From the NCBI GenBank assembly GCA_003223135.1, contig QHXX01000019.1, forward strand, positions 1-64,000: 64,000 bases of DNA, given 5' to 3'. Shown piece by piece: positions 18,331-36,807 of this stretch (the first letter of the stretch is position 1; the number at the start of each line of letters is the position of its first letter). Under the pieces are notes generated by a model that made no database searches, had not been told where the DNA came from, and saw only the letters and a list, made by a program, of their open reading frames with translations. Origin of the DNA: Acidobacteriota bacterium. Lineage in GTDB: Bacteria > Acidobacteriota > Polarisedimenticolia > Gp22-AA2. The position numbers and the translations under genes are program-made.

Positions 18331-21300
18331 TCAGTACTTGCCCTGGATGCGGAAGAAGTAGCCCCTGGCGGAATAGTCGTTCGCGCTGAACTCGTTGTCG
18401 GTGAAGTCGGTGAAGTTGTAGCCGACGCCGACGCGCAGGTGCTTCAGGAACAGCCGGTTGACCTCGAACAGGTAGCCGTTCGACGAGTCGTCGGCCCCCC
18501 TGTCCATCATCAGGGTGCGGTACTCGAGCGCCGCGTCCCAGGTGTCGCTCAGGTGGTAGTTGAAGCGGTTGATCCACAGGCGCAGGCGGCTCTTGAGGTC
18601 GGCCAGCACCGCCTGGTCGATGGCGCGGTCGCGGATCGCGTACTTCTCCGTCAGCGACAGCCGGCGGTGCAGGTCGACGACCGTCTGCAGCGACAACACC
18701 TGGTCGGTCTTCCGATCGCGCACCGCGCTCTGGCTCGCCGGCGGCAGGTTCTCGATCTGCGTGTAGCGCGCCAGGATCTGGATCCAGTCGTAGGCCACGG
18801 GGCGATAGGCGATGCCGTAGCTCTGCTCGCGGAACAGGGTCTCGTCGGCGCCCGTCACGTTGTCGGTGGTGACGCCGTAGTTCAAACGGCCGAGGAACGT
18901 GAAGTCGCGCGACAGCTTCAGCTCGAGCGCGCTGCTGGCGAGCCATTGGTCGCGATCCGTCGGCGGCGCCGGCAGGCCGGGCGACGGGGCCTCGTCGTGC
19001 CGCAGCTCGAACTTGGAGAAGATCTTGAACCAGGTCTGCGCGTACGAGGCGCTCAGAGAGGCGGCCTGGCGGAGGGTGTCGGGATTCGTCCCGGTGCCGT
19101 TGAGGCGCGTGCGCTCGAAGTTGGCGCCGGTGGTCAGGCGGTCGGTCACCTTCGTGTTCAGCCCGACTACGGTGCTGTTGCTGATCTCCTTGTCGCTGGT
19201 CTTGAACTGTTCTTCCGTGTACAGACGCGTCCTATCGCCCAGGGCGGTGGCGGCGCCGGCCGTCAAAACGCCGGTCATCGCCCCGGTGTGATCGGGCGAC
19301 ATGGCGTACGTGCCGTACAGCAGCGTGCGCTCGTCCACCTTGGTCGTCAGACCGACCAGGGCACCGTTGCCCAGCTCGGTGTCGATCAGCTCCGCCTTCG
19401 CCGTCACCTTCGCGCTGACCTGGGCGTCCACTCCCACCGCCGTCTGCCGCCTCGTGCCCGTGGTCGCGCTCGCGCCGCCGACCTGCTGCAGGAAGTCGTC
19501 CTGGTAGCGCGTATAGAAATCGAGCTTCGCGGTCGGGCGGTAGTCGAATCGGATGGCGCCGATTCCCTCGGCGGTGTCGGGCAGCGCCACGTTGTCGGTC
19601 GACCGGTAGCGGACCTCGACGGTCGTCCCGAACTTTCCGAACGTCTTCTGGCCCTGCAGGGTCGAGGTCAGGATGGTGGCGATCCCCTTCACCTCGTTGT
19701 TGTCGACGAGCAGGTTGAGGGTGCCGGTCTTGCCCATTTTGAATCCGAGGGTCACGCCGGCCTGGTCGCTCTCGTTCTGGGCGACGGTGAAGGACGACGA
19801 GAAGCCGGCATCGATGTGGCGCAGGTAGCCGGTCGCCCGGACCGGGCCCTGCCCGGCCGCGTACTCGAAGCGGTAGGCCTGCGCCTTCTGGTTGGAGAAC
19901 GGCACGCTCTTCTGCGAGAAGTTGAGCCCGCCGTCGGTGGAGACGAACTGCGGCAGGGACTCGTTGGCGCTCTGGCTGAACTCGGCCACGACCGAGGACG
20001 AGCTGCCGATGCGCGCCGTCACGTCGCCCCCCGTAAGCTGGTACGTCCCGGTCGGGCGCTCCTCCTGCACGAAGGTGCCGCCCACCATGACGCGTTCACC
20101 GAGAGCCGTCTTCGCCCGCGCGCCGTACGTGTTCACGTCGATCGCCGAGCCCGACAGGTCGGTGAACTCATAGTCGACGACCACGAAGACCGGATTCCCG
20201 TTCAGGATCCCGTCGTTGATGATCGTCGTGGAGTCGGTCACCGACGAGACGGGAGCGCGGAACAGGATCCGGCCTTCCGCGTAGTCAATCTCGTAATCAA
20301 CGTAATTCCTGCGGGTTACGTTCGCAACCGGGATGCCGGTGATCTTGTCCCGAACCTCCAGGCGGACCTTCTCCGAGCCCGGCACGACCCCCTGGCTGCG
20401 CAGGAAGTACAGCGACCCGCCGGTGCCGGCGAACTCGTCGTGCGCCGGGCGCGTCTCCGGCACGGCGCCGAACACCATCACCTGGCCGAGCGGCTGGCCG
20501 TCCTGGCGCCGCGACAGGCTCTTCCAAGTGGCCTTGCCGCCGTACAGCGAGCGATTGAAGGTGGAGAACTCGTTGCCGGTGATTCCGGAATTGTAATTGC
20601 CCCACTGGGCGGTGCCGTAGGGCGCCTCGAAGAGGACATAGAAGCGCCCCTGGCTGTTGGTGTCGGCGTAGGTCCGGCTCGAGTCGCCGTACACGGGATA
20701 GAACGCGTCGGGATCGAGGTTACGGTAGAACGAGCTGTTGTCCCTCTGGCCCAGGCGCGAGCCGGCATCCTTGAGGTTGCCGTCGCCGGTGTCCATGGAG
20801 GCGGTGATCAGGTACTTGCCCTGGATCCGCCCCTTCAGGTAGAAGGCGGCCCGTCCATCCACGAACAGATCATCCTTATATTTGTCGGGCACCGGGCCCT
20901 CGGTCGTGACCTTGTTGATGGTCGCGTCGCCCAGGGCGACCAGGAAGATGTAGTTGCTGCCCACCTGCACCGGCACGCCGACCCGCCCCTCGGTGCTGTT
21001 CGGCATCGACACGACCACGTCGATCACCGACGGACCCTCGGGCAGCCGGATCGTCCCGGAGAAGGTGCCGTTCGGCATCACCGGCATGCGCCACTTGTTG
21101 ATCGTCACCGCAGCCTTCGCCGGGGCGGTGCCGCGCACGAACAGGTTCGGGCTCGACAGGACGGCGCCGCGCGGCGGCAGCTCGATCGAGAACTGCGGCA
21201 CGGGTTTGCGCACTATGATCAGGTCGAGCTTCTTGTCGACGCCGCTCAGGTTCACGGCGAGGTTGACCAGGCTGGTGTTGCCGTTCGGGGCGACCGCGAC

Positions 21301-24300
21301 CACGCCGAAGGTGTTCTCCCCGACCGCCAGGGGCAGCTGGGTGTCGAACCCGCCGGTCGCCTGGACCTCGACCGCCTCGCCGTCGACGAGCACCTGGTTG
21401 CCCGGCTCCGTGCGGCCGCGCACGCGGATCTTGATCGTCGGGTAGCGCGGCCCGTCCTTCGACGGCGTCGGCTGCATCAGCTTGATCACGTCCTCGCGCC
21501 GGCCGATCTCGAGCTTCACGTCCGTGGTCGGCTCGAGGATGGTGATGGTCGGCAGGGTCACGGTGGTCGCGGCCACGCCGCCGTCCTCGGTCTTGATGCC
21601 GACGTACACGCGGCCGTTGTCCTTGATCGGATCGACGACCGTGCGGAACGAGCCGTCGTCGTCCGCCGGGATCGTCTTGCCGTTCACCACGACCTGGCGC
21701 TCGCCGCTAGTCGAGGTCTCGGCGTAGGTCCGGGCGAGCTCGGTGTCCTCGAGGAGTGCCTTGATCTCGACGCGCCGGTTGCGCGCGCGGCCGGCGGAAG
21801 TGGTGTTCGGCTCGATGGGGCTCGCCGAGCCGCGGCCCTCGCTGGTCAGGCGCTCGCCGTCGATGCCGGCGGCCACGAGATAGGCCTTCACCGCGTCGGC
21901 GCGCATCAGCGACAGTCTGCTGTTCCACTCCGCGGCGCCCGTGTTGTCGGTGTGGCCGCGGACGACGACCTTCTCGTCCGGGTACTTCTTCAGCGTGTCG
22001 GCCACCTCCTTCAAGGTGGCCATGGCGCTCTGATTCAGGACGGCGGTATTGGTCTCGAACGAGGCGCCGGTCAGCTCGAACGAGATGGCGTTGGTCCGGT
22101 TCACCCCGAAGATGCGCAGCGGGCTCTTGGAGAGCGATCCGTCCGTGAACTCGATGGTGAGCTGGTACTGGTAGATCGCCCCGCCCTTGACCAGGTTGCC
22201 GGCCGCGTCCTTGCCGTCCCAGACGATCTGGGTCGTCTTCTGGTCGGTGCCGCGGAAGCCGCGGATGCGGCGCATCTGCGCGTCGAAGACCTCGAACACC
22301 CATTCCTTCAAGAAGCGGTCGTGCGGATACGAGACGCGGAAGACCGCGGGCTTGTCGAGACGGCCGTTGACGATCCGGAGATTGCGCTCCAGGCTCATGA
22401 CGTCCATCTTGACGCGCGTCTTCGGCAGGCGAGCCGCAACACCGTTCACCACGGCCGTCATGTCGTCGAGGTTGCCGAGGACCTCGGCCTGGGCCTCGAC
22501 CTTCTCCTCGGTCACGGCGATGCCGTACGTGCCGGGCCGTCCCTGCTTGATCACCAGAGGCGGCTTCAATCGCGCCCCGAAGTTCACCTTGGCCAAAAGG
22601 CCCGGCGTCAGGGTGACCGTCTGGGCTTCCGGAAGGGTCAGGCCGTCGTTCGGCGGCAGGGTGTGGGTGTTGATCTTGACCAGCCGGTTGCCCGGGCGGA
22701 CGGCCGCGATGTGGTACATGCCATTGCCGTCGGTGACGGCGTAGACGCCGTCCTCCATCGCCACCATGACGCCGCCGACGCCGTTCTCGCCCATCCCCTG
22801 CACACCGTTGCCGTCCTTGTCGTCGAACACCTTGCCGACGATCGTGCCGAGGTCGAACTCGGGGTCCTCGAGGAGGGCCACGGTGTTGTCGGCGAGGGCC
22901 GAGAGCGGCTGCGCGACCGCGTCCTGCGCCCGGACCCGGGTGACGAGATCGCCCAGGAGCGCGCCGGTGTTGACCAGAGCGCGGTAGGTCAGCGTGACCG
23001 TCTGGCCCGGGTTGACGGCACCGACCGGGATGAGCCGCGGTATCGCCAGGGCCGGATCCGGCTGGACGGCGCAGGCCGGCGCGCACAGTGACAGTGTGCC
23101 GGAGAGCATCTGCACGCCGACCGGCAGGAGATCGGTCAGGTCGACGTTGGTGACGGCCAGGGCGGTCGGATTGGTGACGGTGATGGTGTACAGGACGAAA
23201 TCGCCGCGCCGCGCCGCCGGTGTGTCCGACGACACCGCGACCCGCAGGACGTCACCCAGGAACACGGGCGCCGTCAGGGTCGGATCGTCGTCGGCCGGGT
23301 CGGCCGGATTGTTCCCGGTCTCGAGGGCGTCGGCGCGGCCGGGGTCGTCGGAAATGGCGCTGAGCGGACCGGCGGCGGTGAGGCTGCCCTGGTTGCTGAT
23401 CACCGTGCCGCCCGGTGTCGTCCCGTCCACGCTGACGTGGTAGATCAGCGTCACGGTGGTCATGGACGGGATGTTGCCGACGTTCCAGACAAGGTTCGGA
23501 GCGCCCGAGTCGTCGGCGCCGGGGCCGGCGATCGACGCGGCCACGTAGGTCGTGCCCGCCGGAACGGGGTCGCTCACCACGACGCCGCTGGCCGCGCCGA
23601 AGCCGCTGTTCGTGATGGTCATGGTGTAGACCAGCGTGTCGCCCGGGTTCAGGCTGCCGCCGCTCAGGTCGGCCACGGTTTCGTGGAACGCGATCACGGG
23701 ACCCGAGGAGGCGACCACCATGTTCGTCGCGTCGTTCGGAGCGGCGGTGCCCGGGTCGTCCGACACGAGGCTGATGCCGCCGTTGGCCGTCACCTGCGCC
23801 TGGTTGCCGATGACCGCGCCGCCGGCGAGCGGCGTATTGAGCAGGACGCGGAAGGTGACGACCACGTCGCTGTCGGCGCCCCCCGCTCCGCTGAGAGTGC
23901 CGATGGTGACCGAGAGCGGATTCCCCTCGACGGTGACGTCCGCCGGATCGTCCGAGCTGAGGCTGCCGGGGACGAGCGTCGTGTTCGCCGGGATCGCGTC
24001 GGTCAGGACGACGCCCGTGGCATCGTCGTTGCCGGAGTTGGTCACGGTGACCGCGTAGGTGACCGTCTCGTTCTCGAACAAGGGCGCGCCGTTGTCGTCC
24101 ACGGCCGTCTTGCTCGCTCTCAGGACCGGCGCGGAGGAGACCGTGCGCGCCGTGGCGTCGTTCGGCGCCGGCGTCGACGGATCGTCCGTGATGATGCCGA
24201 TGCCGCCGTTGGCGGTGATGGTCGCCTGGTTGCCGATGACCGTCCCGTTCGCCAGGGGGTCGGCGACCTGCACGCGGAAAGAGACGACCACGTCGTTGTC

Positions 24301-27300
24301 GGCGCCGCCCGCGCCGTTGAGGTTCCCGATGGCCACGGTCAGGGGGTTCCCCGGCGACAGGACGTCCGAGGGGTCGTCCGAGGTCAGGCTTCCCGGGACC
24401 AGCGTCGTGTTCGCCGGGATGGCGTCCGAGAGCAAAACACCGGAGGCGTCGCCGTTCCCTGAATTCGTGACGGTGATCGTATAGCGGACGACGTCGCCGG
24501 GTTGCAGGGCGCCGCCGTTGAGGTCGGTGAACGTCTTGGTGGCCGACAGGCTGACCGTCGACGTGACCGTGTTGCTCGTGGCCAGACCGGCGATGAGCGG
24601 CGTCTCGTTCGAGTCAATGCTGTAGGTCGTGTTGGTGATCAGGATGCCATTGGGGAGCGGGCTGTTCACCCTCACGACGAGCTGCACCGAGCCGGAGGCG
24701 CTGGCGGCCAGCGCGCCGATGTTCCAGGTCACGACCCCCGCGGCGAGCGTTCCGCCCGCCGTGGCCGAGACGAAAGTGGTGTTCGCCGGCAGCGTGTCCC
24801 TCACGACGACGCCCGTGGCGTCGGCCGTGCCGGTGTTGACGTACGACAGCGTGTAGGTGATGTTCGATCCGGCGTTGACCGGATCGGGCGCGCCGGTCTT
24901 GCTGACGCTGATGACCGGGGACGAGTTCACCGTCGTGGTCACCGCCACCCCGCCGGTCGGCGCCGTCTCGTTCGAGTCGATGGCGTAAGCCCCGTTGGTG
25001 ATCACCGTGCCGTTGGCCAGCGGCGTCACCACCTGCACGACGAGCTGCACGCTCCCCGAGGCGCTGGCCGGCAGGTTGCCGAGGTTCCAGGTCACGATGC
25101 CCGCCGCGAACGAGCCGCCGCCGGTGGCCGAGACGAACGTGGTGTTCGTCGGAACGGTGTCGGTGATCGCAACACCGGTCGCGTCCGCCATGCCGGTGTT
25201 CGAGTAGGAGATCGTGTAGGTGATGGCGCTGCCGGCGTTCACCGGGTCGGGCGCGTCGGTCTTGGAGATGTTCAGCACGGGCGCCGAGCTCACGGTCGTG
25301 GTGACCGCGGCGCCGGCGGTCGGCGCGGTCTCATTCGAGTCGATTTGGTACGAGCCGTTGGTGATGACCGTGCCGTTCGCCAGCGGGCTGTTCACCCTCA
25401 CGACCAGCTGCGCCGTCGAGGAGGCTCCGGTATTGAGCGCCCCGATGTTCCAGGTCACGACACCGCCGGAGAGCGAACCGCCGCCGGTCGCCGACACGAA
25501 CGTGGTGTTCGCGGGGACGGCCTCCGAGACCACGACGCCGGTGGCGTTCTCGTTCCCGGTGTTCGACCACGACAGCGTGTAGGTGATGTTGTTGCCGGCC
25601 GTCACCGGGTCCGGGGCGTCGGTCTTGGAGATGTTCAGCACCGGGCTCGAGGTCACGGTCGTGGTGGCGTCAGGCCCCGTCTGCGGCAGGATCTCGTTGC
25701 TATCGATGGTCCAGCCGGTGTTGGTGATCACCGTGCCGTTGGCCAGCGGACTGTTGACGCGCACGACGAGCTGGACCGATCCCGAGCCGCCGGCGCTCAC
25801 CGCGCCGATGTTCCAGGTCACGACCCCCGCGGCCAGCGTCCCGCCCGCCGTGGCCGAGACGAAAACCGTGTTCGCCGGCAGCGGGTCGCTCAGAACCACT
25901 CCCGTCGCGTTGCTGGTCCCGGTGTTCTGGTACCCCAGCGTGTAGGTGATGTTGCTCCCGGCAGCGACCGGATCCGGCGCGTCCGTCTTGGTCAGGGTGA
26001 ACCGCGTGTTGGACAGCACCGTCGTGGTTGCGGCCGCGCCGCCGACCGGGGCGGTCTCGTTGCAGTCGATGCTGTAGGTGCCGTTGGTGATGACCGAGCC
26101 ATTGGCGACCGGCGTGTTGATCGACACCACCAGCTGGACGGAGCCCGAGGCGCCGGAGGCCACGGTCCCCAGGTTCCAGGTCACCACCCCCGCCGCCAGC
26201 GTCCCGCCGCCCGTGGCGCTGACGAACGTCGTCCCTGCCGGCAGCGCATCGGAAATCACGACCCCCGTGCCGTCGGCGTTGCCGGCGTTGGAGTACGACA
26301 GTGTGTAGGTGATGTTGTCCGTGCCGGCCACCGCCGGGTCGGGCGCGTCGGTCTTGGAAATGTTCAGGATCGGATCCGAGGTGACCGTGGTGGTGATCAC
26401 AGCACCCGCCACCGGTGCCGTCTGGTTGCAGTCGATCGAGTACGACCCGTTGGTGATCAGCGTGCCGTTGGGGAGCGGGCTTTGGACCTGGACGGTCATC
26501 TGCACCGTCCCGGACGCGCCGGCCCCCAGCCCACCAATGTTCCAGGTCACGACACCGGCCGCCAGCGTGCCTCCCGCCGTCGCCGACACGAAGGTCACGT
26601 TGGCCGGCACGGTGTCCGTGATCACGACGCCCGTGGCGTCCTCGTTGCCGCTGTTCGAGTACGACAGGGTGTAGGTGACGTTGTTCCCCGCCGCCACCGG
26701 ATCCGGCGCGTCGGTCTTCGAGAGGCCCAGGTCGGGGGCCGAGGTGACCGTGGTGGTGATCGCCGCCCCGGAGACCGGCGCGGTCTCGTTGCTGTCGATG
26801 GCGTAGGTCGAATTGGTGATCACCGTGCCATTCGCGAGCGGGCTGTCGGCGCGCACGACCAGCTGCACCGAGCCGGCCGATCCGGCGGACACGATGCCGA
26901 GGTTCCAGGTCACGACTCCCGCCGCGAGCGTGCCGCCTGCGGTCGTCGACACGAACGTGGTGTTCGCCGGGATCGTGTCGGTGATCACCACCCCGGTCGC
27001 GTTGGCGTTGCCGGTGTCGGAATAGGAGAGCGTGTAGGTGATGTTGCTCCCGGCGCTCACCGGGTCCGGCGCGTCCCCCTTGGAGATGGCCAGGACGGGG
27101 CTCGATGTCACGGTCGTGGTGATCGCCGCTCCGGCCGTCGGGGCGGTCTCGGTACTGTCGATGCTGTACGTCGGGTTGGTGATGACCGTGCCGTTCGCCA
27201 GGGGGCTGGTCACCTGCACCACAAGCTGGACCGACGAGGACGAACCCGCGTTCAGCGACCCGATGTTCCAGGTGACCACCCCCGCCGCCAGCGTCCCTCC

Positions 27301-30300
27301 GCCTGTTGCCGAGACGAACGTCGTGTTCGCCGGGACGGTGTCGGTGATGACGACGCCGCTGGCGTTGGCGTTGCCGGTGTTCGAGTACGACAGCGTGTAG
27401 GTGATGTCGCTCCCCGCGCTCACCGGATCGGGGGCGTCCGCCTTCGCGATCGCCAGGACCGGCGCCGATGAGACGGTGGTCGGAGCCATTCCTCCCGCCA
27501 CCGGCGCCGTCTCGTTCGAATCGATGCCGTACGTGGCGTTGCTGATGACCGTGCCGTTGGCCAGCGGGCTCGCCACCTGCACCACCAGCTGCACCGACGA
27601 GGATGACCCGGAGTTCAAAGCACCGATGTTCCAGGTGACCACGCCTGCCGCCAGCGTCCCGCCCCCGGTCGCCGACACGAACGTCGTGTTCGCCGGGATC
27701 GTGTCGGTGATCACGATACCGCTGGCGTTGGCGTTGCCGGTGTTCGAGTATGACAGTGTGTAGGTGATGTTGCTTCCGGCGTTCACCGGATCGGGGGCGT
27801 CCGACTTCGAAATCGACAGGACCGGGAGCGTCGACACCGTGGTCGTGATGGCCGCCCCCGCGATCGGCGCCGTCTCACTGCTGTCGATGCCGTAGGTCGA
27901 ATTCGTGATGAGGGTGCCGTTCGCCAGCGGGCTCGTCACCTGCACCACCAGCTGGACCGACGAGGACGACCCGGCGTTGAGCGCCCCGATGTTCCAGGTG
28001 ACCACCCCCGCCGCCAGCGTCCCGCCCCCGGTCGCCGACACGAACGTCGTGTTCGCCGGGATCGTGTCGGTGATCACGACGCCGCTGGCGTTGGCGTTGC
28101 CGGTGTTCGAATACGACAGCGTGTAGGTGATGTTGTTGCCGGCGATGACCGGGTCGGGAGCGTCCGTCTTCACGATCGCCAGGACCGGCGCCGACGACAC
28201 CGTGGTCGTGATGAGAGCACCCGCCGCCGGCGCCGTCTCGTTGCTGTCGATGCCGTAGGTCGCGTTCGTGATGAGCGTGCCGTTCGCCAGCGGGCTCGCC
28301 ACCTGCACCACCAGCTGGACCGACGAGGACGACCCGACGTTCAGCGCGCCGATGTTCCAGGTGACCACGCCCGCGGCCGGCGTCCCGCCCGCCGTCGCCG
28401 ACACGAACGTCGTGTTCGCCGGGATCGTGTCGCTGACGACCACGCCCGAGGCATTGGCCGTGCCGGTGTTCGAGAAAGACAGCGTGTAGGTGATGTTGTT
28501 GCCGGCCACGACCGGATCGGGGGCGTCGGTCTTCGAGATGGTCAGGGTGGGCGTCGCGGACACCGTCGTCGTCACCGCGGCCCCTGACACCGGCGCCGTC
28601 TCGTTGGAAGTGATCTGGTAGGTCGCGTTGGTGATGACCGTGCCGTTCGCCAGCGGGCTCGCCACCTGCACGACGAGCTGTACCGTCCCCGACGATCCGG
28701 CGTTCAGCGCCCCGAGGTTCCAGGTGACCACGCCGGCCGCCAGGGTGCCGCCCCCCGTCGCCGACACGAACGTCGTATTGGCCGGGATCGTGTCGGTGAT
28801 CGCCACGCCCGAGGCGTTCATGTTCCCCGCGTTTCCGTAGGACAGCGTGTAGGTGATGTTCGCGCCCGCAGCGACCGGATCCGGCGCATCGGTCTTCGAC
28901 AGGGTGAGCACGGGGGCGGAGGTGACCGTGGTCGTCGCGTTCGGCCCCGTCTGCGGCAACGACTCGTTGCTGTCGATGGTCCATCCCGTGTTGGTGATCA
29001 CGGTGCCGTTGGCCAGCGGGCTGTTCACCCGCACGACGAGCTGCACGGATCCGGAGGACCCGGCGTTCACGGCGCCGATGTTCCAGGTGACGATCCCGGC
29101 CGCCAGCGTTCCGCCCGCCGTCGCCGAGACGAAGGTGGTGTTGGCCGGCAGGCTGTCGCTGATGACGACGCCCGTGGCGTTGTTGGTCCCGACGTTCTGG
29201 TAGCCGATCGTGTAGGTGATATTGCTTCCCGCCCCCACCGGGTCGGGCGCGTCCACTTTGGTCAGGTTGAAGCGCGGATCCGAGAGGACCGTGGTCGTGA
29301 TGGCGGCGCCGCTCGTGGGCGCGGTCTCGTTGCAGTCGATGGCGTAGGTGGCGTTGGTGATCGTGGTGTCGTTGGCGAGCGGGGTGTTGATCGGCACGAC
29401 GAGCTGCACGGACCCGGAGCCCCCGGCGGCCAGCGCGCCAACGTTCCAGGTGACCACACCGGCCGCCAGGGTGCCGCCGGCCGTCGCCGACACGAAGCTG
29501 GTGTTGGCCGGCACGTTGTCGGTGATCACAACTCCGCTCGCGTTCGCCGTTCCGGTGTTCGAATACGACAGCGTGTAGGTGATGTTGTCGGTCCCCGCCA
29601 CCGCGGGATCCGGAGAGTCGGTCTTGGAGATGTTCAGGATCGGATCCGAGGTCACGGTGGTGGTGATCGAAGCCCCTGCGAGCGGCGCGGTCTCGTTGCT
29701 GTCGATGTTGTACGCGCCGTTCGTGATCAGGGTGCCGTTGGGGAGCGGGCTCCCGACCTGGACCACCAGTTGCACAGACCCCGAGCCCCCGGCGGCCAGC
29801 GCGCCGACGTTCCAGGTGACCACACCGGCGGCCAGCGTCCCCCCACCGGTCGCCGACACGAACGAGGTGTTCCCCGGCACGGTGTCGGTGATCACGACAC
29901 CCGTCGCGTTGGCGTTGCCGGAGTTCGAGAAGGAGATCGTGTAGGTGATGTTGTTCCCCGCCGGAACCGGGTCCGGCGCGTCGGTCTTGGAGATCGCCAG
30001 AACCGGCGACGACGTCACCGTCGTGGTGATCGCCGCCCCCGCCACCGGAGCGGTCTCGTTCGAATCGACGTTGTAGGCCGCGTTGGTGATCACCGTGCCG
30101 TTGGCCAGCGGGCTCGCCACCTGGACCGTCAGCGTTCGCGTCATGGTCGCCCCGGCGGCGAGGATTCCGACGTTCCAGGTCACCACACCGGCCGCGAGGG
30201 TCCCGCCGCCGGACGCCGACACGAAGCCGGTGTTCGCGGGCACCGTGTCGGTGACCACGACGCCGGTCGCGTTGGCGTTGCCGGTGTTGCTGAAGCTCAG

Positions 30301-33300
30301 CGTGTAGGCGATGTTGGCGCCTGCCGCCACGGGATCGGGGGCATCGGTCTTGGCGATGGTCAGGACGGGCGCCGAGGTCACCATCGTGGTGATAGGCAGC
30401 CCGGCCGTGGGGGCCGTCTCGTTGCTGTCGATACCGTACGTCGAATTGGTGATGACCGTGCCGTTCGCCAGCGGGCTGGCCGTCTGCACCACCAGCTGCA
30501 CGCTGCCCGACGTTCCGGCGCTCAGCGCCCCGATATTCCAGGTCACGATACCGGCGGCCAGCGTCCCGCCGCCGGTCGCCGAGACGAACGAGGTGTTCCC
30601 CGGCACGGTGTCGGTGATCACCACGCCCGTGGCGTTGGCGTTGCCGGTGTTCGAGTACGACAGCGTGTAGGTGATGTTGCTTCCCGCGTTGACCGGGTCG
30701 GGCGCGTCGGTCTTCGACAGGGTCAAGACCGGCGACGACGACACCGTCGTGGTGATGGCCGTGCCCGCCACCGGCGCCGTCTCGTTGCTGTCGATGCTGA
30801 ACGTGGCATTGGTGATCACACTGCCGTTCGCCAGGGGCGAGGCGACCTGAACGACCAGCTGCACCGAGCCCGAGCCGCCCGCCGCGAGGGCCCCGATGTT
30901 CCAGGTCACGACACCGGCGGCGAGCGTTCCACCGCCCGTCGCCGACACGAACGAGGTGTTCGCCGGGATGGTATCGGCGATCACGACCCCCGTCGCATTG
31001 GCGTTGCCGGTGTTCGAGTACGACAGCGTGTAGGTGATGTTGCTCCCGGCGTTCACCGGGTCGGGCGCGTCGGTCTTGGAGATCGTCAAGGCCGGGGAGG
31101 ATGAGACCGTCGTGGTGATGGCCGCGCCCGCCGCCGGGGTCGTCTCGTTGGAGTCGATGTTGAACGCGCCGTTGGTGATGACCGTGCCGTTCGCCAGCGG
31201 CGAGGTGACCTGCACGACGAGCTGCACCGAGCCGGACCCGCCGACCGCCAGGGCGCCGATGTTCCAGGTGACCACGCCGGCCGCCAGCGTGCCGCCGCCC
31301 GTCGCCGACACGAACGACGTGTTCGCGGGAATCGTGTCGGTGATGACCACGCCGCTCGCCGCCGCCGTGCCGGTGTTCGAGTAGGACAGCGTGTAGGTGA
31401 TGTTGCTCCCCGCGTTCACCGGATCCGGGGCGTCCGTCTTGGAGATCGTCAGCACCGGCTTCACGACCGTCGTGTTGGCGGTGGAGTTGCCCGGCCCGCC
31501 GAGGTTGTTGCAGGTGTCGCCATACGTCGTGGTCACGACGTCGTCCTTGGCCACGGCCAGGACACCGACGGCCGGATTGGCCACCACGCCTTCGGAGGTG
31601 GCGAGCGCGCCGGAGAAGACGCCGGTGTTCACGCCGGTCTCGGTCAGAGTCACGGTCTCAGTCTCCCCGGTCGCGGGATTGTTCACCGTGACGGTGAACG
31701 TCTGCGCGGTCGCCGGGTTGGTGTTCCGGTCGGCGTCGGTGACGCTGATGGCGATCGCCTGGGTCGGCAGGATCGTCGCGGAGGCGCTGAGTGTGCCGGT
31801 GACGCAGGACGTGGTCACGTTCGTCGTGGCGGTCACGGTCGCGGTACCACCGCCGGCGGTGAAGCCGTCGTTGTAGGTGGTGGTCAGGGTGTCGCCGGCC
31901 TTGACATTGAAGGTGCCGTCGTTGTTCGTGCCGGCCGCGGCCCCGAACACCGTCGCCACCGTGGCGGTGAACACACCCGTGTTCACGCCCGTCTCGGTGT
32001 AGGTGCGCGTCTCGCTCTCCCCCGTGGCCGGGTTCAGCGTGGTCAGGGCCAGCGTCTGCACCGTCGCCGGGTTGGTGTTCAGGTTCCGGTCGGTGAGGGT
32101 CAGGGTGACGCTGTTACCGGGGCTGATGGGCGTCGTCGAAGTCAGCGTGCCCGAGAAGCCGGCCGCCACGGTCGCGTTGGCCGTGTTCGTGTTGACGGCT
32201 GCCGTCTGGGCGCTGGCGATCGAGGCCACGTTCGAGATGACCGTGCCGCCGGCGACCGCGTCGCCGATGGTGGCGTCGAAGGTCAGCGTCGTCGTCGCCC
32301 CGGCGCCGTTCAGGGGCCCGACGTTCCAGACCAGATTCGGATTGCCGGCGGCGTTGGCGCCCGTGCCGGTAATCGAGCCGGCGACGTACGTGCTGTTGGC
32401 CGGCACGGTGTCGTTCACGACGATGCCGGTGGCGTTCATGTTGCCGCTGTTGCGCACGACGATCGTGTAGCGCAGGGTGTCGCCCGTGGTCACGAGCCCG
32501 CCGTTCAGGTCGCTCACCGTCTTGGTCGAGATGGAGAAATTCGGCGACGCCGTGATGTTGGTCGTGGCCGTCGTGGTGTTGACCGCGGCCGTCTGGGTGC
32601 TCGCGATGGACGCCGTGTTGGTGATCGAGGTCGTCCCCGCCGGCACCGGATTGTTGACCAGGACCTGGTAGGTCAGGTTCACCGTCGCCCCGGACGCCAC
32701 GTTGCCGACGTTCCAGACCAGGTTCGGATTGCCGGCGGCGCTGGCGCCCGGGCCGGTGATCGATAAGGCGACGTACGTGGTGTTGGGCGGCACGGTGTCG
32801 TTGACCACGACGCCCGTCGCGCCGCTCGATCCGGTATTGATCACGCTGAGGGTGTAGGTCAGCGTCGAGCCCGGGGTGGCCGCGGCGAAGTTGACCGTCT
32901 TGGTGCTGGTCGCGAAGGAGACCGGCGACTGGACCGTGGTGGTCGTGGTCGCCTGGATCGGCGACCCCAGACCGGTCTCGACGCTCACCCCGGACGCCGT
33001 GTTGATGATGACGGTGCCGTTGATCACGCCGGCGCCGACCTGGACCACGAGGGTCCGGGTGACCGAGGCGCCCGAGGCCATCGCCCCCACGTTCCAGGTG
33101 ACCGTCCCTCCCCCGAGCGTGCCGCCGTTGCTGGCCGAGACGAACGTGGTGTTCCCCGGCACGGCGTCCGTCAGGACGACCCCCGTGAGGCCGACGCTGC
33201 CGTTGTTGGTGATCGTGATCGTGTAGGTGATGTTGGCCCCGGCGGCGACCGGGTCGGGCGCGTCGGTCTTGGTCACGGCCATGTTGGCGGTGTTGCCGAC

Positions 33301-34599
33301 GAGGGTCGTGAAGGTCGCAGTGTCGCTGACCGCTGCGTTGAAGTTCGAGGTGGCCCGGATCTGGAAAGTGTCGGTCTGGTTGTTGCCGCCGCCCTGCGTC
33401 TTGGTGATACGCACCTGGTACGTGACGGTGGCGCCCGCGGCCATGTTCCCGGTGTCGGGCAGCCCGTCGCCGTCCGTGTCCGCCGCCGCCAGGACGGAGT
33501 CCCACGTGCCGTTGGCGTTCGAGTTGTCGGTCGCCAGGACGGTCGCGCCGGCCGCGTCGAGGAGCTCGATCTGCATGTTCCAGGGATTGGCGCCGATGAC
33601 GTCGGTCAGGTCGAAGCGATCGGTCCCGTTCCCGGTGTTGGTCACGGTGAACGTGTAGACGTACAGGGTGCCGTTCGAGGGCCGGATGATTCCCGACTGA
33701 TCCGGATCGACGATGACCGAGGCGACCTGGGTGACGGTCGTCGTGACCGTGTTCGAGGTCTTGGGATCCTGCGTGTTCCCAAGATTGTCCTGGAACGAGA
33801 TCGTGCCGCTGTTGCCGATCACCGTGCCGGCTGTGACGCCGGCGTTGACGGTAACCGTGAACTGCCGCGATCCCGAACCGCCGGCCGCGATCGCCCCGAT
33901 GCTCCAGGTCACCACACCACCGGTCAGGGTGCCTCCCCCCGTCGCGCTCTGGAACGTCGTGTTGGACGGCACGAAATCCGAAAGCGAGACGTTGGTCGCG
34001 CCCACGCTGCCGGCGTTGCTGTACGAGAGCGTGTAGGTGATCGGCTGTCCGGGGCCCGCGGTCGCCACGCTGCGCGTCTTCGTCAGCGTGATGTTCAGGG
34101 GATTCACGACCGTGATGTTCGTCGGATCGTTCGCCGCGCCGGTCGACGGGTCGTCTGAGAGGACGGTGATCGGCCCGGTCGCGGTGATCGTCGCCTGGTT
34201 GCCGATCACCAGGCCATTGGCCGCCCCGGCGCTGATCTGCACGTTGAACGTGACGGTCACGCTGCCGCCGGAAGCCGAAAGAGCACCGGCCTGGACCTGG
34301 AGCGGATTCCCCTCGATGATGATGTCGGTCGGATCGCTACTGGTCAGCGTCCCCGGGAGATAGGTGGTGTTGGCCGGGATCGGATCCGAGATCACGACGT
34401 TGGCCGCCGCCGTGGTGCCGGTGTCGGTGACGATGATGGTGTAGGTGAGCGTCTCGCTGGGACGCGGCGAGCCGCCGTTGTCGTCGGTCGCCGTCTTGGT
34501 GGCGACGAGATTGACGGCGGCGAGGGTCGCCCCCGACAGGGCCGGGCCCACAAGGAGCAGGGCCGCCAGGATCGTCCGCCGCAGGCCGGCCCGGCTCAT
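18331..34599 (-). CDS. Giant 5,422-aa envelope protein: DUF11 repeat array + SdrD_B + OmpA-like + C-terminal beta-barrel
   Basis: One uninterrupted frame of 16.3 kb. The ATG follows GGAGGCGGGCG and overlaps the upstream TGA (ATGA). Signal peptide at residues 1-28. Residues about 30-3900 are about 29 DUF11 ('conserved repeat domain') modules with the signature KTDAPDPV...GSNITYTLSYSNTG; near residues 860-1040 two different 'NTNPATVQT' domains interrupt them. An SdrD_B/CarboxypepD_reg-like domain (VGKVFDDKDGNGVQG) lies near 3916, a FlgD-like Ig segment near 4130, and an OmpA-like peptidoglycan-binding domain at about 4170-4280 with both key residues present (HTDNTGAAEWN and NRRVEI). Big-like domains follow, then from about 4550 long amphipathic beta strands ending in RGYFFRIQGKY, a terminal aromatic typical of outer-membrane barrels. 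It is probably a surface adhesin or stalk anchored by its own barrel. Length and domain order are unusual. Confidence 0.88.
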   Translation of the reverse strand: MSRAGLRRTILAALLLVGPALSGATLAAVNLVATKTATDDNGGSPRPSETLTYTIIVTDTGTTAAANVVISDPIPANTTYLPGTLTSSDPTDIIIEGNPLQVQAGALSASGGSVTVTFNVQISAGAANGLVIGNQATITATGPITVLSDDPSTGAANDPTNITVVNPLNITLTKTRSVATAGPGQPITYTLSYSNAGSVGATNVSLSDFVPSNTTFQSATGGGTLTGGVVTWSIGAIAAGGSGSRQFTVTVNAGVTAGTVIGNSGTISFQDNLGNTQDPKTSNTVTTTVTQVASVIVDPDQSGIIRPSNGTLYVYTFTVTNTGNGTDRFDLTDVIGANPWNMQIELLDAAGATVLATDNSNANGTWDSVLAAADTDGDGLPDTGNMAAGATVTYQVRITKTQGGGNNQTDTFQIRATSNFNAAVSDTATFTTLVGNTANMAVTKTDAPDPVAAGANITYTITITNNGSVGLTGVVLTDAVPGNTTFVSASNGGTLGGGTVTWNVGAMASGASVTRTLVVQVGAGVINGTVIINTASGVSVETGLGSPIQATTTTTVQSPVSFATSTKTVNFAAATPGSTLTYTLSVINTGSSGATGVVVNDTVPPNTTYVALSITGPGASAAGNPNLVWNVGNVASGATVNLTYQVLVNNPVPAGTTSITNTASIASTQTAAVNTTTATTNITASPNFSISTKTVSDLNGGLVTTGDTLRYTIVVRNSGNMNATGIVVNDTVPANSTYVAGSITGTGANAAGNPNLVWNVGPLNGAGATTTLTFDATIGDAVAGGTVISNVASIASAQTAAVNTNTANATVAAGFSGTLTSTTPISPGNSVTLTLTDRNLNTNPATVQTLALTTLNPATGESETRTYTETGVNTGVFTATVATVFGAAAGTNNDGTFNVKAGDTLTTTYNDGFTAGGGTATVTATTNVTTSCVTGTLSASATILPTQAIAISVTDADRNTNPATAQTFTVTVNNPATGETETVTLTETGVNTGVFSGALATSEGVVANPAVGVLAVAKDDVVTTTYGDTCNNLGGPGNSTANTTVVKPVLTISKTDAPDPVNAGSNITYTLSYSNTGTAAASGVVITDTIPANTSFVSATGGGTLAAGVVTWNIGALAVGGSGSVQLVVQVTSPLANGTVITNGAFNIDSNETTPAAGAAITTTVSSSPALTISKTDAPDPVNAGSNITYTLSYSNTGNANATGVVIADTIPANTSFVSATGGGTLAAGVVTWNIGALAAGGSGSVQLVVQVASPLANGSVITNATFSIDSNETAPVAGTAITTTVSSSPVLTLSKTDAPDPVNAGSNITYTLSYSNTGNANATGVVITDTVPGNTSFVSATGGGTLAAGIVTWNIGALSAGTSGSVQLVVQTASPLANGTVITNSTYGIDSNETAPTAGLPITTMVTSAPVLTIAKTDAPDPVAAGANIAYTLSFSNTGNANATGVVVTDTVPANTGFVSASGGGTLAAGVVTWNVGILAAGATMTRTLTVQVASPLANGTVITNAAYNVDSNETAPVAGAAITTTVTSSPVLAISKTDAPDPVPAGNNITYTISFSNSGNANATGVVITDTVPGNTSFVSATGGGTLAAGVVTWNVGALAAGGSGSVQLVVQVGSPLPNGTLITNGAYNIDSNETAPLAGASITTTVTSDPILNISKTDSPDPAVAGTDNITYTLSYSNTGTANASGVVITDNVPANTSFVSATAGGTLAAGVVTWNVGALAAGGSGSVQLVVPINTPLANDTTITNATYAIDCNETAPTSGAAITTTVLSDPRFNLTKVDAPDPVGAGSNITYTIGYQNVGTNNATGVVISDSLPANTTFVSATAGGTLAAGIVTWNIGAVNAGSSGSVQLVVRVNSPLANGTVITNTGWTIDSNESLPQTGPNATTTVTSAPVLTLSKTDAPDPVAAGANITYTLSYGNAGNMNASGVAITDTIPANTTFVSATGGGTLAAGVVTWNLGALNAGSSGTVQLVVQVASPLANGTVITNATYQITSNETAPVSGAAVTTTVSATPTLTISKTDAPDPVVAGNNITYTLSFSNTGTANASGVVVSDTIPANTTFVSATAGGTPAAGVVTWNIGALNVGSSSSVQLVVQVASPLANGTLITNATYGIDSNETAPAAGALITTTVSSAPVLAIVKTDAPDPVIAGNNITYTLSYSNTGNANASGVVITDTIPANTTFVSATGGGTLAAGVVTWNIGALNAGSSSSVQLVVQVTSPLANGTLITNSTYGIDSSETAPIAGAAITTTVSTLPVLSISKSDAPDPVNAGSNITYTLSYSNTGNANASGIVITDTIPANTTFVSATGGGTLAAGVVTWNIGALNSGSSSSVQLVVQVASPLANGTVISNATYGIDSNETAPVAGGMAPTTVSSAPVLAIAKADAPDPVSAGSDITYTLSYSNTGNANASGVVITDTVPANTTFVSATGGGTLAAGVVTWNIGSLNAGSSSSVQLVVQVTSPLANGTVITNPTYSIDSTETAPTAGAAITTTVTSSPVLAISKGDAPDPVSAGSNITYTLSYSDTGNANATGVVITDTIPANTTFVSTTAGGTLAAGVVTWNLGIVSAGSAGSVQLVVRADSPLANGTVITNSTYAIDSNETAPVSGAAITTTVTSAPDLGLSKTDAPDPVAAGNNVTYTLSYSNSGNEDATGVVITDTVPANVTFVSATAGGTLAAGVVTWNIGGLGAGASGTVQMTVQVQSPLPNGTLITNGSYSIDCNQTAPVAGAVITTTVTSDPILNISKTDAPDPAVAGTDNITYTLSYSNAGNADGTGVVISDALPAGTTFVSATGGGTLAAGVVTWNLGTVASGASGSVQLVVSINTPVANGSVITNGTYSIDCNETAPVGGAAATTTVLSNTRFTLTKTDAPDPVAAGSNITYTLGYQNTGTSNATGVVLSDPLPANTVFVSATAGGTLAAGVVTWNIGAVSAGGSGSVQLVVRVNSPLANGTVITNTGWTIDSNEILPQTGPDATTTVTSSPVLNISKTDAPDPVTAGNNITYTLSWSNTGNENATGVVVSEAVPANTTFVSATGGGSLSGGVVTWNIGALNTGASSTAQLVVRVNSPLANGTVITNGSYQIDSNETAPTAGAAVTTTVSSAPVLNISKTDAPDPVNAGSAITYTISYSNTGMADATGVAITDTVPTNTTFVSATGGGSFAAGIVTWNLGNLPASASGSVQLVVQVVTPLANGTVITNGAYAIDSNETAPTGGVAVTTTVNSSPVISVSKTGAPDPVNAGSNITYTLSYVNTGTADATGVVVRDTLPANTTFVSATAGGTLAAGVVTWNIGALAASASGSVQLVVRVNSPLPNGILITNTTYSIDSNETPLIAGLATSNTVTSTVSLSATKTFTDLNGGALQPGDVVRYTITVTNSGNGDASGVLLSDAIPANTTLVPGSLTSDDPSDVLSPGNPLTVAIGNLNGAGGADNDVVVSFRVQVADPLANGTVIGNQATITANGGIGIITDDPSTPAPNDATARTVSSAPVLRASKTAVDDNGAPLFENETVTYAVTVTNSGNDDATGVVLTDAIPANTTLVPGSLSSDDPADVTVEGNPLSVTIGTLSGAGGADSDVVVTFRVLLNTPLAGGAVIGNQAQVTANGGISLVSDDPGTAAPNDATNMVVASSGPVIAFHETVADLSGGSLNPGDTLVYTMTITNSGFGAASGVVVSDPVPAGTTYVAASIAGPGADDSGAPNLVWNVGNIPSMTTVTLIYHVSVDGTTPGGTVISNQGSLTAAGPLSAISDDPGRADALETGNNPADPADDDPTLTAPVFLGDVLRVAVSSDTPAARRGDFVLYTITVTNPTALAVTNVDLTDLLPVGVQMLSGTLSLCAPACAVQPDPALAIPRLIPVGAVNPGQTVTLTYRALVNTGALLGDLVTRVRAQDAVAQPLSALADNTVALLEDPEFDLGTIVGKVFDDKDGNGVQGMGENGVGGVMVAMEDGVYAVTDGNGMYHIAAVRPGNRLVKINTHTLPPNDGLTLPEAQTVTLTPGLLAKVNFGARLKPPLVIKQGRPGTYGIAVTEEKVEAQAEVLGNLDDMTAVVNGVAARLPKTRVKMDVMSLERNLRIVNGRLDKPAVFRVSYPHDRFLKEWVFEVFDAQMRRIRGFRGTDQKTTQIVWDGKDAAGNLVKGGAIYQYQLTIEFTDGSLSKSPLRIFGVNRTNAISFELTGASFETNTAVLNQSAMATLKEVADTLKKYPDEKVVVRGHTDNTGAAEWNSRLSLMRADAVKAYLVAAGIDGERLTSEGRGSASPIEPNTTSAGRARNRRVEIKALLEDTELARTYAETSTSGERQVVVNGKTIPADDDGSFRTVVDPIKDNGRVYVGIKTEDGGVAATTVTLPTITILEPTTDVKLEIGRREDVIKLMQPTPSKDGPRYPTIKIRVRGRTEPGNQVLVDGEAVEVQATGGFDTQLPLAVGENTFGVVAVAPNGNTSLVNLAVNLSGVDKKLDLIIVRKPVPQFSIELPPRGAVLSSPNLFVRGTAPAKAAVTINKWRMPVMPNGTFSGTIRLPEGPSVIDVVVSMPNSTEGRVGVPVQVGSNYIFLVALGDATINKVTTEGPVPDKYKDDLFVDGRAAFYLKGRIQGKYLITASMDTGDGNLKDAGSRLGQRDNSSFYRNLDPDAFYPVYGDSSRTYADTNSQGRFYVLFEAPYGTAQWGNYNSGITGNEFSTFNRSLYGGKATWKSLSRRQDGQPLGQVMVFGAVPETRPAHDEFAGTGGSLYFLRSQGVVPGSEKVRLEVRDKITGIPVANVTRRNYVDYEIDYAEGRILFRAPVSSVTDSTTIINDGILNGNPVFVVVDYEFTDLSGSAIDVNTYGARAKTALGERVMVGGTFVQEERPTGTYQLTGGDVTARIGSSSSVVAEFSQSANESLPQFVSTDGGLNFSQKSVPFSNQKAQAYRFEYAAGQGPVRATGYLRHIDAGFSSSFTVAQNESDQAGVTLGFKMGKTGTLNLLVDNNEVKGIATILTSTLQGQKTFGKFGTTVEVRYRSTDNVALPDTAEGIGAIRFDYRPTAKLDFYTRYQDDFLQQVGGASATTGTRRQTAVGVDAQVSAKVTAKAELIDTELGNGALVGLTTKVDERTLLYGTYAMSPDHTGAMTGVLTAGAATALGDRTRLYTEEQFKTSDKEISNSTVVGLNTKVTDRLTTGANFERTRLNGTGTNPDTLRQAASLSASYAQTWFKIFSKFELRHDEAPSPGLPAPPTDRDQWLASSALELKLSRDFTFLGRLNYGVTTDNVTGADETLFREQSYGIAYRPVAYDWIQILARYTQIENLPPASQSAVRDRKTDQVLSLQTVVDLHRRLSLTEKYAIRDRAIDQAVLADLKSRLRLWINRFNYHLSDTWDAALEYRTLMMDRGADDSSNGYLFEVNRLFLKHLRVGVGYNFTDFTDNEFSANDYSARGYFFRIQGKY
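24560..31460 (-). repeat. 19 tandem 363/366-nt in-frame repeats inside the giant gene
   Basis: Nineteen consecutive modules of 121-122 codons each (about 6.9 kb) share K(T/S/G/A)DAPDPV at the start and NGT(V/L)ITN...IDSNETAP near the end, within residues about 1047-3347. Two modules carry one extra codon (PAVAGTDN). The GC-rich opposite strand gives the regular 120-residue shadow ORFs in the track. A higher-order unit is visible: the segment cggatccgag recurs at 26371 and 29641, exactly 3,270 nt apart (eight modules of 363 plus one of 366). Confidence 0.92.
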
Positions 34600-36464
34600 C
34601 GCCCGCCTCCGCGCACCACTCGCACCAGCGAGGCGACCACGTCAGGATCGTGCTTGCGGCCGCGTCTTTTCTGGATCGCCTCGAGAGCCTGCGTGAGGGC
34701 GCGCGCGTCCTGCGCGTTCGGGCACCGGGCGACGAACTCCTCGGCGGCGGCCAGTATGCGCGACTCGACGGGCACGCCGCCGGCCCCGAGCGGCGCGGGA
34801 GAGGCGTCGAACCAGTCGGCGGAACGCAGGATGATCTCGCGCACGGCGCGCAGCGAGGCGATCGGCGCCAGAAGGCGCTCGGTGGCCATGACCGCGACGG
34901 GGAACCACTCGGCCGCGGGGCGCAGGCGCCCGCCGGCGCGCTCCTGCTCCTCGGGACGCGCCGTGAGGCGTCCCAGCTCATGCAGGGCCGCGGCGCGAAC
35001 GGCCAGCTCGACGCGCTCCTCCGGCAGGCCCAGGTCCCGGGCGATCTCACCGGCCAGTTCCGCCATCCGCCTCGAATGGCCTTGCGTTTCGGGGCGCAGC
35101 TCCTCCATCGCCCGGATCGCGGCGACGAGCGCCGCGAGGTAGCCGCCCTCCATCTCCTTCACCAGGCGGGCGTTTTCGATGGCGACCGCCATCTGCGACG
35201 CGAGGGTGGAGAGAAATTCGAGGTCCTGCTCCGTGAACGGCTCGCCGGAGTGCTTGTCGCTGACATTGATGACGCCGACCCGGCGGCGCTGGTAACGGAT
35301 CGGATAGGAGACCGTGAGGGGCGTGACCATGAAGGAGGCGGTCGAGTACTTGCCGCCCGTGCGCAGCGTCTTCAGTTCCGTCTTCTCGATATCCTGCACG
35401 AGGAGAGGCGACTGCGTGGCGGCGACGCGCCCCGCGATGCCCTCCCCCACGCGAACGGTGCGCCGGAGCCCGTCCTCATCCGGGATGCCGACCGAGGCGA
35501 CGAGCGTCATCGTGTCGTGGTCGGCCTCCGACACCAGCACCGAGACGCGGCGCGCCTTGAGGTGCTGGGCCACCAGGCGCACGAGCGAGTCGTACAGATC
35601 GACCGTGTCCAGGACGCCGGTGGTTGCCTTGCCGATCTCGTTGACGGCCGCCAGGCGGGCCACCGTTTCGGTCAGCTCCACGTTGCGCGACTGGAGGCTT
35701 GTGACCAGCATGCGGTTTTCTTCGGCCAGGCGGCGCTTCTCCAGGGCGCGGTCGACCACGCGATGGAGCGCGTCCAGCTCGGGAAGGGGCTTGGTGATGA
35801 GGTCGTAGGCGCCGTCGCGCAGCGCCTCGATCGCCGTGTCCAGGCTGGCGTGCGCGGTGATGACGATGACCTCGGCGCCGGGGCTCAGCTGCTTGACCGT
35901 CTTGAGGACTTCGAGACCCGATACCCCGGGCATGCGGACGTCGGTGAGGACGATGTCGCACGGGTGCGCCCGGAAGATCTCGATGCCGCGCGCGCCGTCC
36001 TCGGCCGCCGCGACGCTGTGTCCGGCCTCGGTCAGGGCGGCCACCAGGAACTTGCGGACCGAGGCGTCGTCATCGATCACCAGGAGGCGGCCGGGGGCCT
36101 CGGACGCACCCGCCGTGGAAGGCCACGCCTCGCCGGCGGAGGAGGAGTCGGCGGGGGCGGCCTCAGTGAGCCTTGTCTTCCCGGCCGCCTCAAGGCGCGG
36201 ACCCGATGCGTCCCTATGGAGCGAGTAGAAGGCGGTGCCGCCGATGAGGCGCCTGTCGAGAAGCCCCTGCGCGTGCAGCTCGGCGACGGAGCGCTCGACG
36301 AGGCTCTTGTCTCCGCGCACCCAGAAGCGGGCGATCCCTTCCACCGAATCCATCGCTTCGGAGTTGCGGCGAAAATAGCCCAGCACCCGCTCGGTGATCT
36401 CGGGACGCGCCGCGTCGGCGGGCTTTCCCGCCGGCTGCGGCTGCGCTCCCTTGACGGACCCCAT
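34596..36464 (-). CDS. Regulator: winged-helix-like N-terminus, REC, GAF and degenerate HD-GYP-like domain
   Basis: First gene of the giant-protein block, ATG after CCGGAGGTCCGTCCG. Residues 25-80 (ITERVLGYFRRNSEAMDS, then GLLDRRLIGG) look like a small winged helix. The REC domain at about 125-240 has pocket VIDDDAS and Asp175 (IVLTDVRMPG). A GAF domain covers about 265-430 (VRVGEGIAGRVAATQ, GVINVSD). A helical HD-like domain starts near 440: HSRRMAELAGEIARDLGLPE followed by HELGRL where active enzymes have HDIGK, and no GYP loop. Cyclic-di-GMP hydrolysis is therefore unlikely, and the domain may bind ligand or partner instead. Its TGA overlaps the giant's ATG, so the two are translationally coupled. 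It probably controls production of the giant. Confidence 0.8.
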   Translation of the reverse strand: MGSVKGAQPQPAGKPADAARPEITERVLGYFRRNSEAMDSVEGIARFWVRGDKSLVERSVAELHAQGLLDRRLIGGTAFYSLHRDASGPRLEAAGKTRLTEAAPADSSSAGEAWPSTAGASEAPGRLLVIDDDASVRKFLVAALTEAGHSVAAAEDGARGIEIFRAHPCDIVLTDVRMPGVSGLEVLKTVKQLSPGAEVIVITAHASLDTAIEALRDGAYDLITKPLPELDALHRVVDRALEKRRLAEENRMLVTSLQSRNVELTETVARLAAVNEIGKATTGVLDTVDLYDSLVRLVAQHLKARRVSVLVSEADHDTMTLVASVGIPDEDGLRRTVRVGEGIAGRVAATQSPLLVQDIEKTELKTLRTGGKYSTASFMVTPLTVSYPIRYQRRRVGVINVSDKHSGEPFTEQDLEFLSTLASQMAVAIENARLVKEMEGGYLAALVAAIRAMEELRPETQGHSRRMAELAGEIARDLGLPEERVELAVRAAALHELGRLTARPEEQERAGGRLRPAAEWFPVAVMATERLLAPIASLRAVREIILRSADWFDASPAPLGAGGVPVESRILAAAEEFVARCPNAQDARALTQALEAIQKRRGRKHDPDVVASLVRVVRGGGR

Positions 36465-36557
36465 CGGACGGACCTCCGGGGTCCTGTATTGCGAAGGACG
36501 TGCCCTCCGAGCGCATTCCCCGACGGCCGCCGCGGCTGCGTGTTTTCAAGAGGTTAT

Positions 36558-36575: not shown

Positions 36576-36778
36576 CGCAGGGGGGTCATGACAGTTTGCG
36601 GCATCGATCCCGTGTGGTTTTCCCCACGGCAGGTCCGTCATCACGATCTTGCATGGGGGGATTTTGGTCCGCATGAGGGGGAACCCACCCGGCCCCGAAC
36701 GGTCCAGGAAATCCTGGCGCGGGGGTTTGTGCGACGGGTGGATGGTCTGTCTCGAGCTCCAACCAGGAATTCACCTCA

Positions 36779-36807
36779 TTGATGTTCGCCCGCCCGGAAT
36801 CTATCCT
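36779..36807 (+). promoter_or_regulatory. Putative sigma-70 promoter of the GGDEF-EAL gene
   Basis: TTGATG, 17-nt spacer, TATCCT. The predicted start is near 36814, giving a leader of about 36 nt that contains the GAGGAG ribosome binding site at 36838. Confidence 0.4.

Follow-up and report, generated by a model that had tools for sequence, protein, structure and literature searches.

The window analyzed here, 64,000 nt from an Acidobacteriota bacterium (assembly GCA_003223135.1, contig QHXX01000019.1), is one contig of a 3.7-Mb draft genome, called G000 below, its relatives being numbered from G001. It harbors a directon of five minus-strand genes (13418-36464), flanked on both sides by genes on the plus strand, which encodes a giant protein together with putative signaling proteins. 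From its head, this operon comprises a regulator with predicted winged-helix, receiver (REC), GAF, and HD-type domains, the giant, a FecR-like protein, a histidine kinase, and a protein in which a REC domain is joined to the N-terminal domain of Ycf46 (REC-Ycf46N):

34596-36464, minus strand: head regulator, 622 aa
18331-34599, minus strand: giant, 5,422 aa, 547 kDa, pI 4.4
18334-20982, minus strand: predicted C-terminal outer-membrane β-barrel region of the giant, 883 aa (AlphaFold2 (AF2) model and Foldseek)
16978-18303, minus strand: FecR-like protein, 441 aa
15033-16970, minus strand: sensor histidine kinase, 645 aa
13418-15025, minus strand: REC-Ycf46N protein, 535 aa

The regulator and giant genes overlap by 4 nt, and the junctions that follow are gaps of 27, 7, and 7 nt. 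Order, coordinates, overlap, and gaps are thus those of the original prediction, which was made from the sequence alone; its "5.4-kDa-residue" giant had the wrong unit, since 5,422 residues amount to about 547 kDa. All five open reading frames (ORFs) look coding because their G+C content at third codon positions is 0.88-0.94, and the long antisense ORFs in the operon were rejected as GC artefacts.

The five-gene set is a real, conserved system. In a search of 41 genomes of the class and 396 genomes of the phylum, the sensor domain of the kinase was found in nine of the 41 class genomes (E 2e-69 or better; elsewhere only weak part-matches), with no further strong match across the phylum genomes. 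The operon-type FecR-like protein occurs in the same nine (E 1e-81 or better), the next matches falling to 4e-49. All nine FecR-like/kinase pairs adjoin a giant barrel gene or sit at contig ends consistent with this, and no pair without one was found in the class. In G001, G002, G005, G006, and G034, the FecR-like gene and then the kinase come after the barrel end of the giant; in G003, G004, and G036 the set is cut by contig ends and the fragments fit the same order. The regulator directly precedes the start of the giant, with the 4-nt overlap, in G000, G001, G005, and G006. Operon order is complete in G001 and G002, runs across contig ends in G003 and G005, and is partial in G006. In G006 and G004 a single giant gene remains unproved because regulator and barrel lie on different contigs. 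The original prediction had staked itself on gene order, and this order recurs in two families and at least five genera, at protein identities of 20-40% across families. It had also proposed a co-occurrence search, which links giant barrel, FecR-like protein, and kinase in nine genomes and includes REC-Ycf46N only in part.

The giant has a signal-like N terminus followed, in order, by immunoglobulin (Ig)-like repeats, an SdrD_B-like domain, an OmpA-like domain, two Glucodextran_B-like Ig domains, and the C-terminal β-barrel. Pfam recognizes DUF11 repeats, SdrD_B, OmpA (E 3e-22), and Glucodextran_B. An iterated repeat model resolves 31 Ig-like units; there are 29 confident DUF11 units, 19 in a run with an exact period of 121 aa. 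The barrel region has no Pfam match, and a sequence search of the PDB came back empty. An AF2 model of the last 883 residues shows about 33 strands in residues 265-883 (mean pLDDT 68, pTM 0.58), and its best Foldseek matches are nearly all outer-membrane barrels (BtuB, Cir, LptD, MtrB, SlpA, FimD). Since the template-modeling scores (TM-scores) do not exceed 0.36, what is supported is the class of fold only, and we predict a many-stranded β-barrel at that level. The match to Deinococcus SlpA (PDB 8ae1, 7zgx) is of interest in that SlpA likewise combines a C-terminal outer-membrane barrel with a wall-binding module. However, there is no detected sequence relation between the two, and TM-scores of 0.25-0.29 speak for a shared class of fold only. 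We know of no Ig array or linked signaling genes for SlpA. The domain order casts doubt on surface exposure of the giant's repeats: because the OmpA-like domain sits between them and the barrel, they may lie in the periplasm.

Related barrels were also seen outside the operon. A second protein of the window genome (L099:3-3629, on contig G000:C115) has a related barrel start, is cut off by the contig end, and is preceded on the same strand by a separate receiver-domain gene. Moreover, a contig labeled Candidatus Omnitrophota (L036, WJKZ01000193.1) encodes a barrel 30% identical to the giant's C terminus, so that either the barrel family extends beyond Acidobacteriota or this contig is mis-binned.

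As for the FecR-like protein, hydropathy, by which the topology of this protein and of the kinase was assigned, indicates an uncleaved N-terminal transmembrane helix (residues 2-26). It is followed by a flexible or disordered linker (27-113), a FecR-like β domain, an FN3-like domain, and a Glucodextran_B/Ig domain. The FecR domain of the original prediction finds its support in homologues: the window protein by itself has no match to Pfam FecR (PF04773) at the gathering score. Three of eight orthologues match PF04773 weakly (best E 5e-4), and a profile-profile comparison with four class paralogues gives E 2e-36 over 336 columns. All four of these paralogues match FecR (L089 with 25.3 bits against a cut-off of 24). 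We accept the assignment because these homologues match PF04773, not from a direct Pfam scan. Foldseek on the model of the protein returned mainly tandem Ig/FN3 matches, which are uninformative on FecR itself. LysM was not found by Pfam in the window protein or its homologues.

A second type of FecR-like paralogue, about 480-580 aa long with an N-terminal transmembrane helix and FecR, FN3-like, and Ig domains, has matches in nearly all genomes of the class. It adjoins mreB at the nine loci inspected (G000:C57 (L089:7620-9068), L090, L091, L092, L093, L094, L095, L098, and L100). At eight of them mreC and PBP2 are present as well, the ninth ending at a contig edge, and in G000 and G001 a GAF-GGDEF gene lies between the paralogue and mreB. 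We found no description of a FecR-type protein linked to the cell-elongation cluster.

In the kinase, transmembrane helices at 8-26 and 315-333 flank a periplasmic sensor (about 27-314), and HAMP, HisKA (H413), and HATPase domains follow. The sensor has no Pfam match, and CHASE2 was not found by Pfam in the window kinase or its homologues. The last protein of the operon consists of a REC domain, a Pro/Ala linker (51% P+A), and a Ycf46 N-terminal domain. The alignment with Ycf46-type AAA+ proteins spans its C-terminal 220 residues, covers their N-domain, and ends before the ATPase. As a single sequence it matches such a protein of its own genome at E 1.8e-6; as a profile it reaches E 7e-20 against proteins of about 500 aa whose frames continue into an AAA+ Walker A motif. 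The Ycf46N-like identity proposed for this gene is thus borne out by sequence and profile homology. What sets the protein apart from Ycf46-type AAA+ proteins, with which it has the N-terminal domain in common, is that the AAA+ part is missing (no AAA+ ATPase domain match by Pfam) and that the N-domain is fused behind a receiver and linker. REC-Ycf46N is limited to G000, G001, G002, G003, and G005, plus one fragment in G017, and is absent after the kinase in G006 and G034. It is a lineage-specific addition and, being present only in the window's lineage and one further genome, not the general output of the operon that had been proposed.

The head regulator contains, by Pfam, REC (128-234, with phospho-acceptor D175 kept), GAF, and HD-type domains. 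Residues 22-82 are predicted to form a winged helix, to which MarR_2 gives a weak match (E 0.008). The nearest NCBIfam entry is a REC-HD-GYP family, below its cut-off. In place of HDIGK, the HD-GYP-derived domain has HELG in the window and HE[LAV]G across the window, G001, G002, G005, G006, and G014, without HHE or GYP in any of these; a G003 fragment likewise reads HELG. We rejected an active cyclic di-GMP (c-di-GMP) phosphodiesterase, as the HD-GYP catalytic motifs are lost in every homologue read that far. In G014, from a different family, the regulator precedes another exported protein (L134, G014:C162), which has Vgb_lyase-like repeats where the giant has DUF11, and the neighboring activator seems to be broken (a 39-aa frame). 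This suggests that the control module can drive other envelope proteins.

Upstream of the regulator lies what appears to be a sigma-54 control layer, with one further gene between its parts:

39128-40147, minus strand: REC-less sigma-54 enhancer-binding protein (Pfam Sigma54_activat, E 1e-65)
36649-39114, plus strand: divergent REC-REC-GGDEF-EAL gene, probable start about 36820
36490-36505, minus strand: sigma-54-type -24/-12 promoter-like site, GGGCACGTCCTTCGCA, 41 nt before the regulator start
36612-36627, minus strand: candidate enhancer (upstream activating sequence, UAS) palindrome, GTGGGGAAAACCACAC, consensus GTGGGGAATTCCCCAC, starting 163 nt before the regulator start
36675-36690, minus strand: second UAS-like copy, weak (10/16 in the window), about 63 nt beyond the first

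The activator, whose start was inferred at Met60 of ORF 39128-40324, has a Walker A motif (GESGTGKE), a GAYTGA loop, and a C-terminal Fis-like helix-turn-helix, without a receiver domain. Orthologues are present in seven genomes (G000-G006), with C termini 69-81% identical in G001-G006. In G001 and G003-G006 the activator gene immediately precedes the regulator, whereas in G000 and G002 one gene lies between the two. The intervening REC-REC-GGDEF-EAL gene is not a core part, because only G000 and G002 have it and it is missing at this place in G001 and G003-G006. Since the regulatory sites also lie upstream of its probable start, the region before the regulator may be a shared divergent promoter.

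In eight of eight genomes from two families, the -24/-12-like site lies 41±2 nt ahead of the regulator start, in surroundings that have otherwise diverged. It reads GGCAYG-N4-YYGCA or nearly so, and GG and GC are spaced ten bases apart in all eight; the background is 208 scores this high in 1.1 million positions. The window genome has rpoN. A palindrome close to GTGGGGAATTCCCCAC occurs about 162 nt before the regulator start in the same number of genomes (8/8), with 12-15 of 16 positions matching. In G001-G004, its sole genomic match at two mismatches or fewer is this locus. The second UAS-like copy recurs 62-63 nt further up in several genomes and is better preserved (12-13/16) in G001, G002, and G004. 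The matches elsewhere, inside a 683-aa gene (G000:C36) and in the activator gene region (G006:C59), are no evidence of a wider UAS regulon; a reversed control pattern likewise gives 0-1 sites per genome. By analogy with the known sigma-54 pattern, the conserved sites are a putative promoter and putative enhancers. NtrC-family sigma-54 regulation by a REC-less activator is known from PspF-like systems. The likeness extends to the AAA+ activator without receiver, the -24/-12-like site, and palindromes about 115-185 nt upstream of that site; here, in contrast, the activator is linked to a kinase whose receivers sit on other proteins. The operon was therefore delimited too narrowly at first: its five genes stand, and an end at 36464 omits two elements of the unit, the promoter-like site and the sigma-54 activator. 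Nor does a single, non-DNA-binding output agree with these elements and with the predicted winged helix of the head regulator.

Two known arrangements of FecR proteins invite comparison. In FecIRA-type cell-surface signaling, the chain consists of the FecA barrel, FecR, and the sigma factor FecI. The present locus similarly combines an outer-membrane barrel protein, an inner-membrane-anchored FecR-domain protein, and a cytoplasmic regulator. However, a histidine kinase holds the cytoplasmic role, the FecR-like N terminus has no cytoplasmic anti-sigma part (the transmembrane helix begins at residue 2), and the barrel has no Pfam match to TonB-dependent receptors. An extracytoplasmic function (ECF) sigma system was rejected, as Pfam finds no ECF sigma factor among the five operon genes, the divergent gene, or the activator. 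A closer precedent is the BiofilmReg operon of Burkholderia contaminans, for which PMC5192318 gives the order response regulator, LysM/FecR protein, CHASE2 histidine kinase, DUF4136. That study reports that biofilm formation was abolished when the operon was disrupted, and that a two-gene FecR-histidine kinase form exists in P. aeruginosa. Both operons place a response regulator first and the kinase later, with a periplasmic FecR-domain protein directly before the kinase across a short gap, and envelope sensing is proposed for both, BiofilmReg being linked to biofilm. Because of this precedent, a FecR protein coupled to a kinase is of a known kind: the kinase in place of a sigma factor beside FecR is indeed present, as originally predicted, and it is not new. 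BiofilmReg differs in having no giant outer-membrane protein, LysM instead of FN3 and Ig on its FecR protein, a CHASE2-type kinase, and a trans_reg_C effector on its regulator; a sigma-54 activator and REC-Ycf46N are not reported in the text consulted. New relative to known FecR-kinase operons are the giant with its barrel, the sigma-54 wiring by activator and sites, and Ycf46N as an output domain; the receiver-GAF-dead-HD regulator is a further difference. In a limited literature search, which was also aimed at giant DUF11/OmpA proteins in Acidobacteria, we found no description of the whole gene set; many of the DUF11 matches concerned DUF1127.

We consider it somewhat probable that this operon serves envelope signaling and makes, under a sigma-54 switch of its own, a giant Ig-repeat protein anchored in the outer membrane and to peptidoglycan. 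Judging from conserved sequence, the REC-less activator would bind the palindromes and drive RNA polymerase-sigma54 at the -24/-12 site. The resulting transcript would run from the regulator through the giant and the FecR-like protein to the kinase, extending to REC-Ycf46N in one lineage. The giant would be exported, its C-terminal barrel residing in the outer membrane and its OmpA-like domain holding peptidoglycan, while the FecR-like protein, anchored by one helix in the inner membrane, would span the periplasm. Together with the periplasmic sensor of the kinase, the FecR-like protein may report on the state of the envelope, possibly on the assembly or loading of the giant, which is thus a possible input to the kinase. 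The kinase would phosphorylate the REC domain of the head regulator, which of the two receivers is the more widely retained, and also that of REC-Ycf46N where present. Rather than hydrolyzing c-di-GMP, the head regulator, whose HD-GYP active site is lost, would switch its binding, perhaps to DNA, according to phosphorylation, and it might then feed back on the activator or the promoter. In its strongest form, a self-reporting giant, the periplasmic part of the giant would be the ligand of the FecR-like protein and kinase. Cells would then gauge fiber assembly or load and adjust sigma-54-driven synthesis, with REC-Ycf46N as an undescribed phosphorylation-controlled output; this we regard as unlikely.

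Several observations weigh against the envelope-signaling reading. The proposed contact between the giant and the FecR-like protein has only operon membership and shared Ig-type domains behind it, and confidence in the barrel model is moderate. In G034 and G036, which retain giant, FecR-like protein, and kinase, no orthologue of the regulator or activator was found; their giants are cut by contig ends, and most relatives are many-contig assemblies with breaks in the repeats. In the window itself, a plus-strand gene separates the activator from the operon, and the palindrome, at 13/16 (three mismatches), is among the weaker copies.

Among other explanations, it is quite conceivable that the giant is only an output (an adhesin, a matrix fiber, or an outer-membrane tether). 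Its gene would be clustered with the others for on-demand production, and the FecR-like protein and kinase would sense peptidoglycan, a solute, or surface contact, with no information passing from giant to kinase. The kinase does have its own periplasmic sensor of about 290 residues between two transmembrane helices, the Burkholderia FecR-kinase pair works without a giant (PMC5192318), and the FecR-like paralogues beside mreB have no giant partner. Yet the linkage of nine of nine FecR-like/kinase pairs to a giant barrel is tighter than a general sensor needs. Somewhat less plausible, though given the giant's domain order a serious alternative to surface display, is a periplasmic Ig-repeat array that serves as a wall-to-outer-membrane scaffold, the operon monitoring envelope architecture. 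With repeats, OmpA-like domain, Ig domains, and C-terminal barrel in this order and the OmpA-like domain periplasmic, the most economical topology leaves all that precedes this domain on the periplasmic side as well, which also fits the link of the FecR-like paralogue to the mre cell-shape cluster. However, 31 extended Ig domains would measure about 100 nm, which is hard to fit in the periplasm unless they lie along the surface, and comparable giant Ig proteins are surface adhesins. Finally, a chance directon, or hitch-hiking of co-directional neighbors with no functional unit, is very improbable and was rejected: although gene content varies (REC-Ycf46N missing after the kinase in two genomes, the plus-strand gene beside the activator in the window), order is kept across families at protein identities of 20-40% and the promoter-like site is present in eight genomes.

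Two neighboring genes complete the picture of the region. The minus-strand gene at 42766-48570 encodes a 1,934-aa subtilase with HYDIN/ASH-type Ig domains, a MopE-like metal-binding motif, and other repeats, and in G001 and G002 counterparts flank the operon on this side too. On the plus strand, 11166-13376, convergent with the operon end, encodes a protein of 736 aa that looks exported, contains internal repeats, and has no match in Pfam.

Among uncultured bacteria, giant proteins with Ig repeats are common, but little is known of how their production is decided. At the present locus, the giant is accompanied by a kinase, receivers, a FecR-like link, and a sigma-54 activator without REC, and promoter-like sites are conserved as well, so that control of the giant is directly testable. 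The locus extends the FecR-kinase operons, a little-studied type, by an outer-membrane partner, and REC-Ycf46N is a new domain combination that may help explain the function of the Ycf46 N-domain. In this class of uncultured Acidobacteriota, these findings suggest a cell that makes, and may also monitor, a giant envelope structure as one regulated unit.

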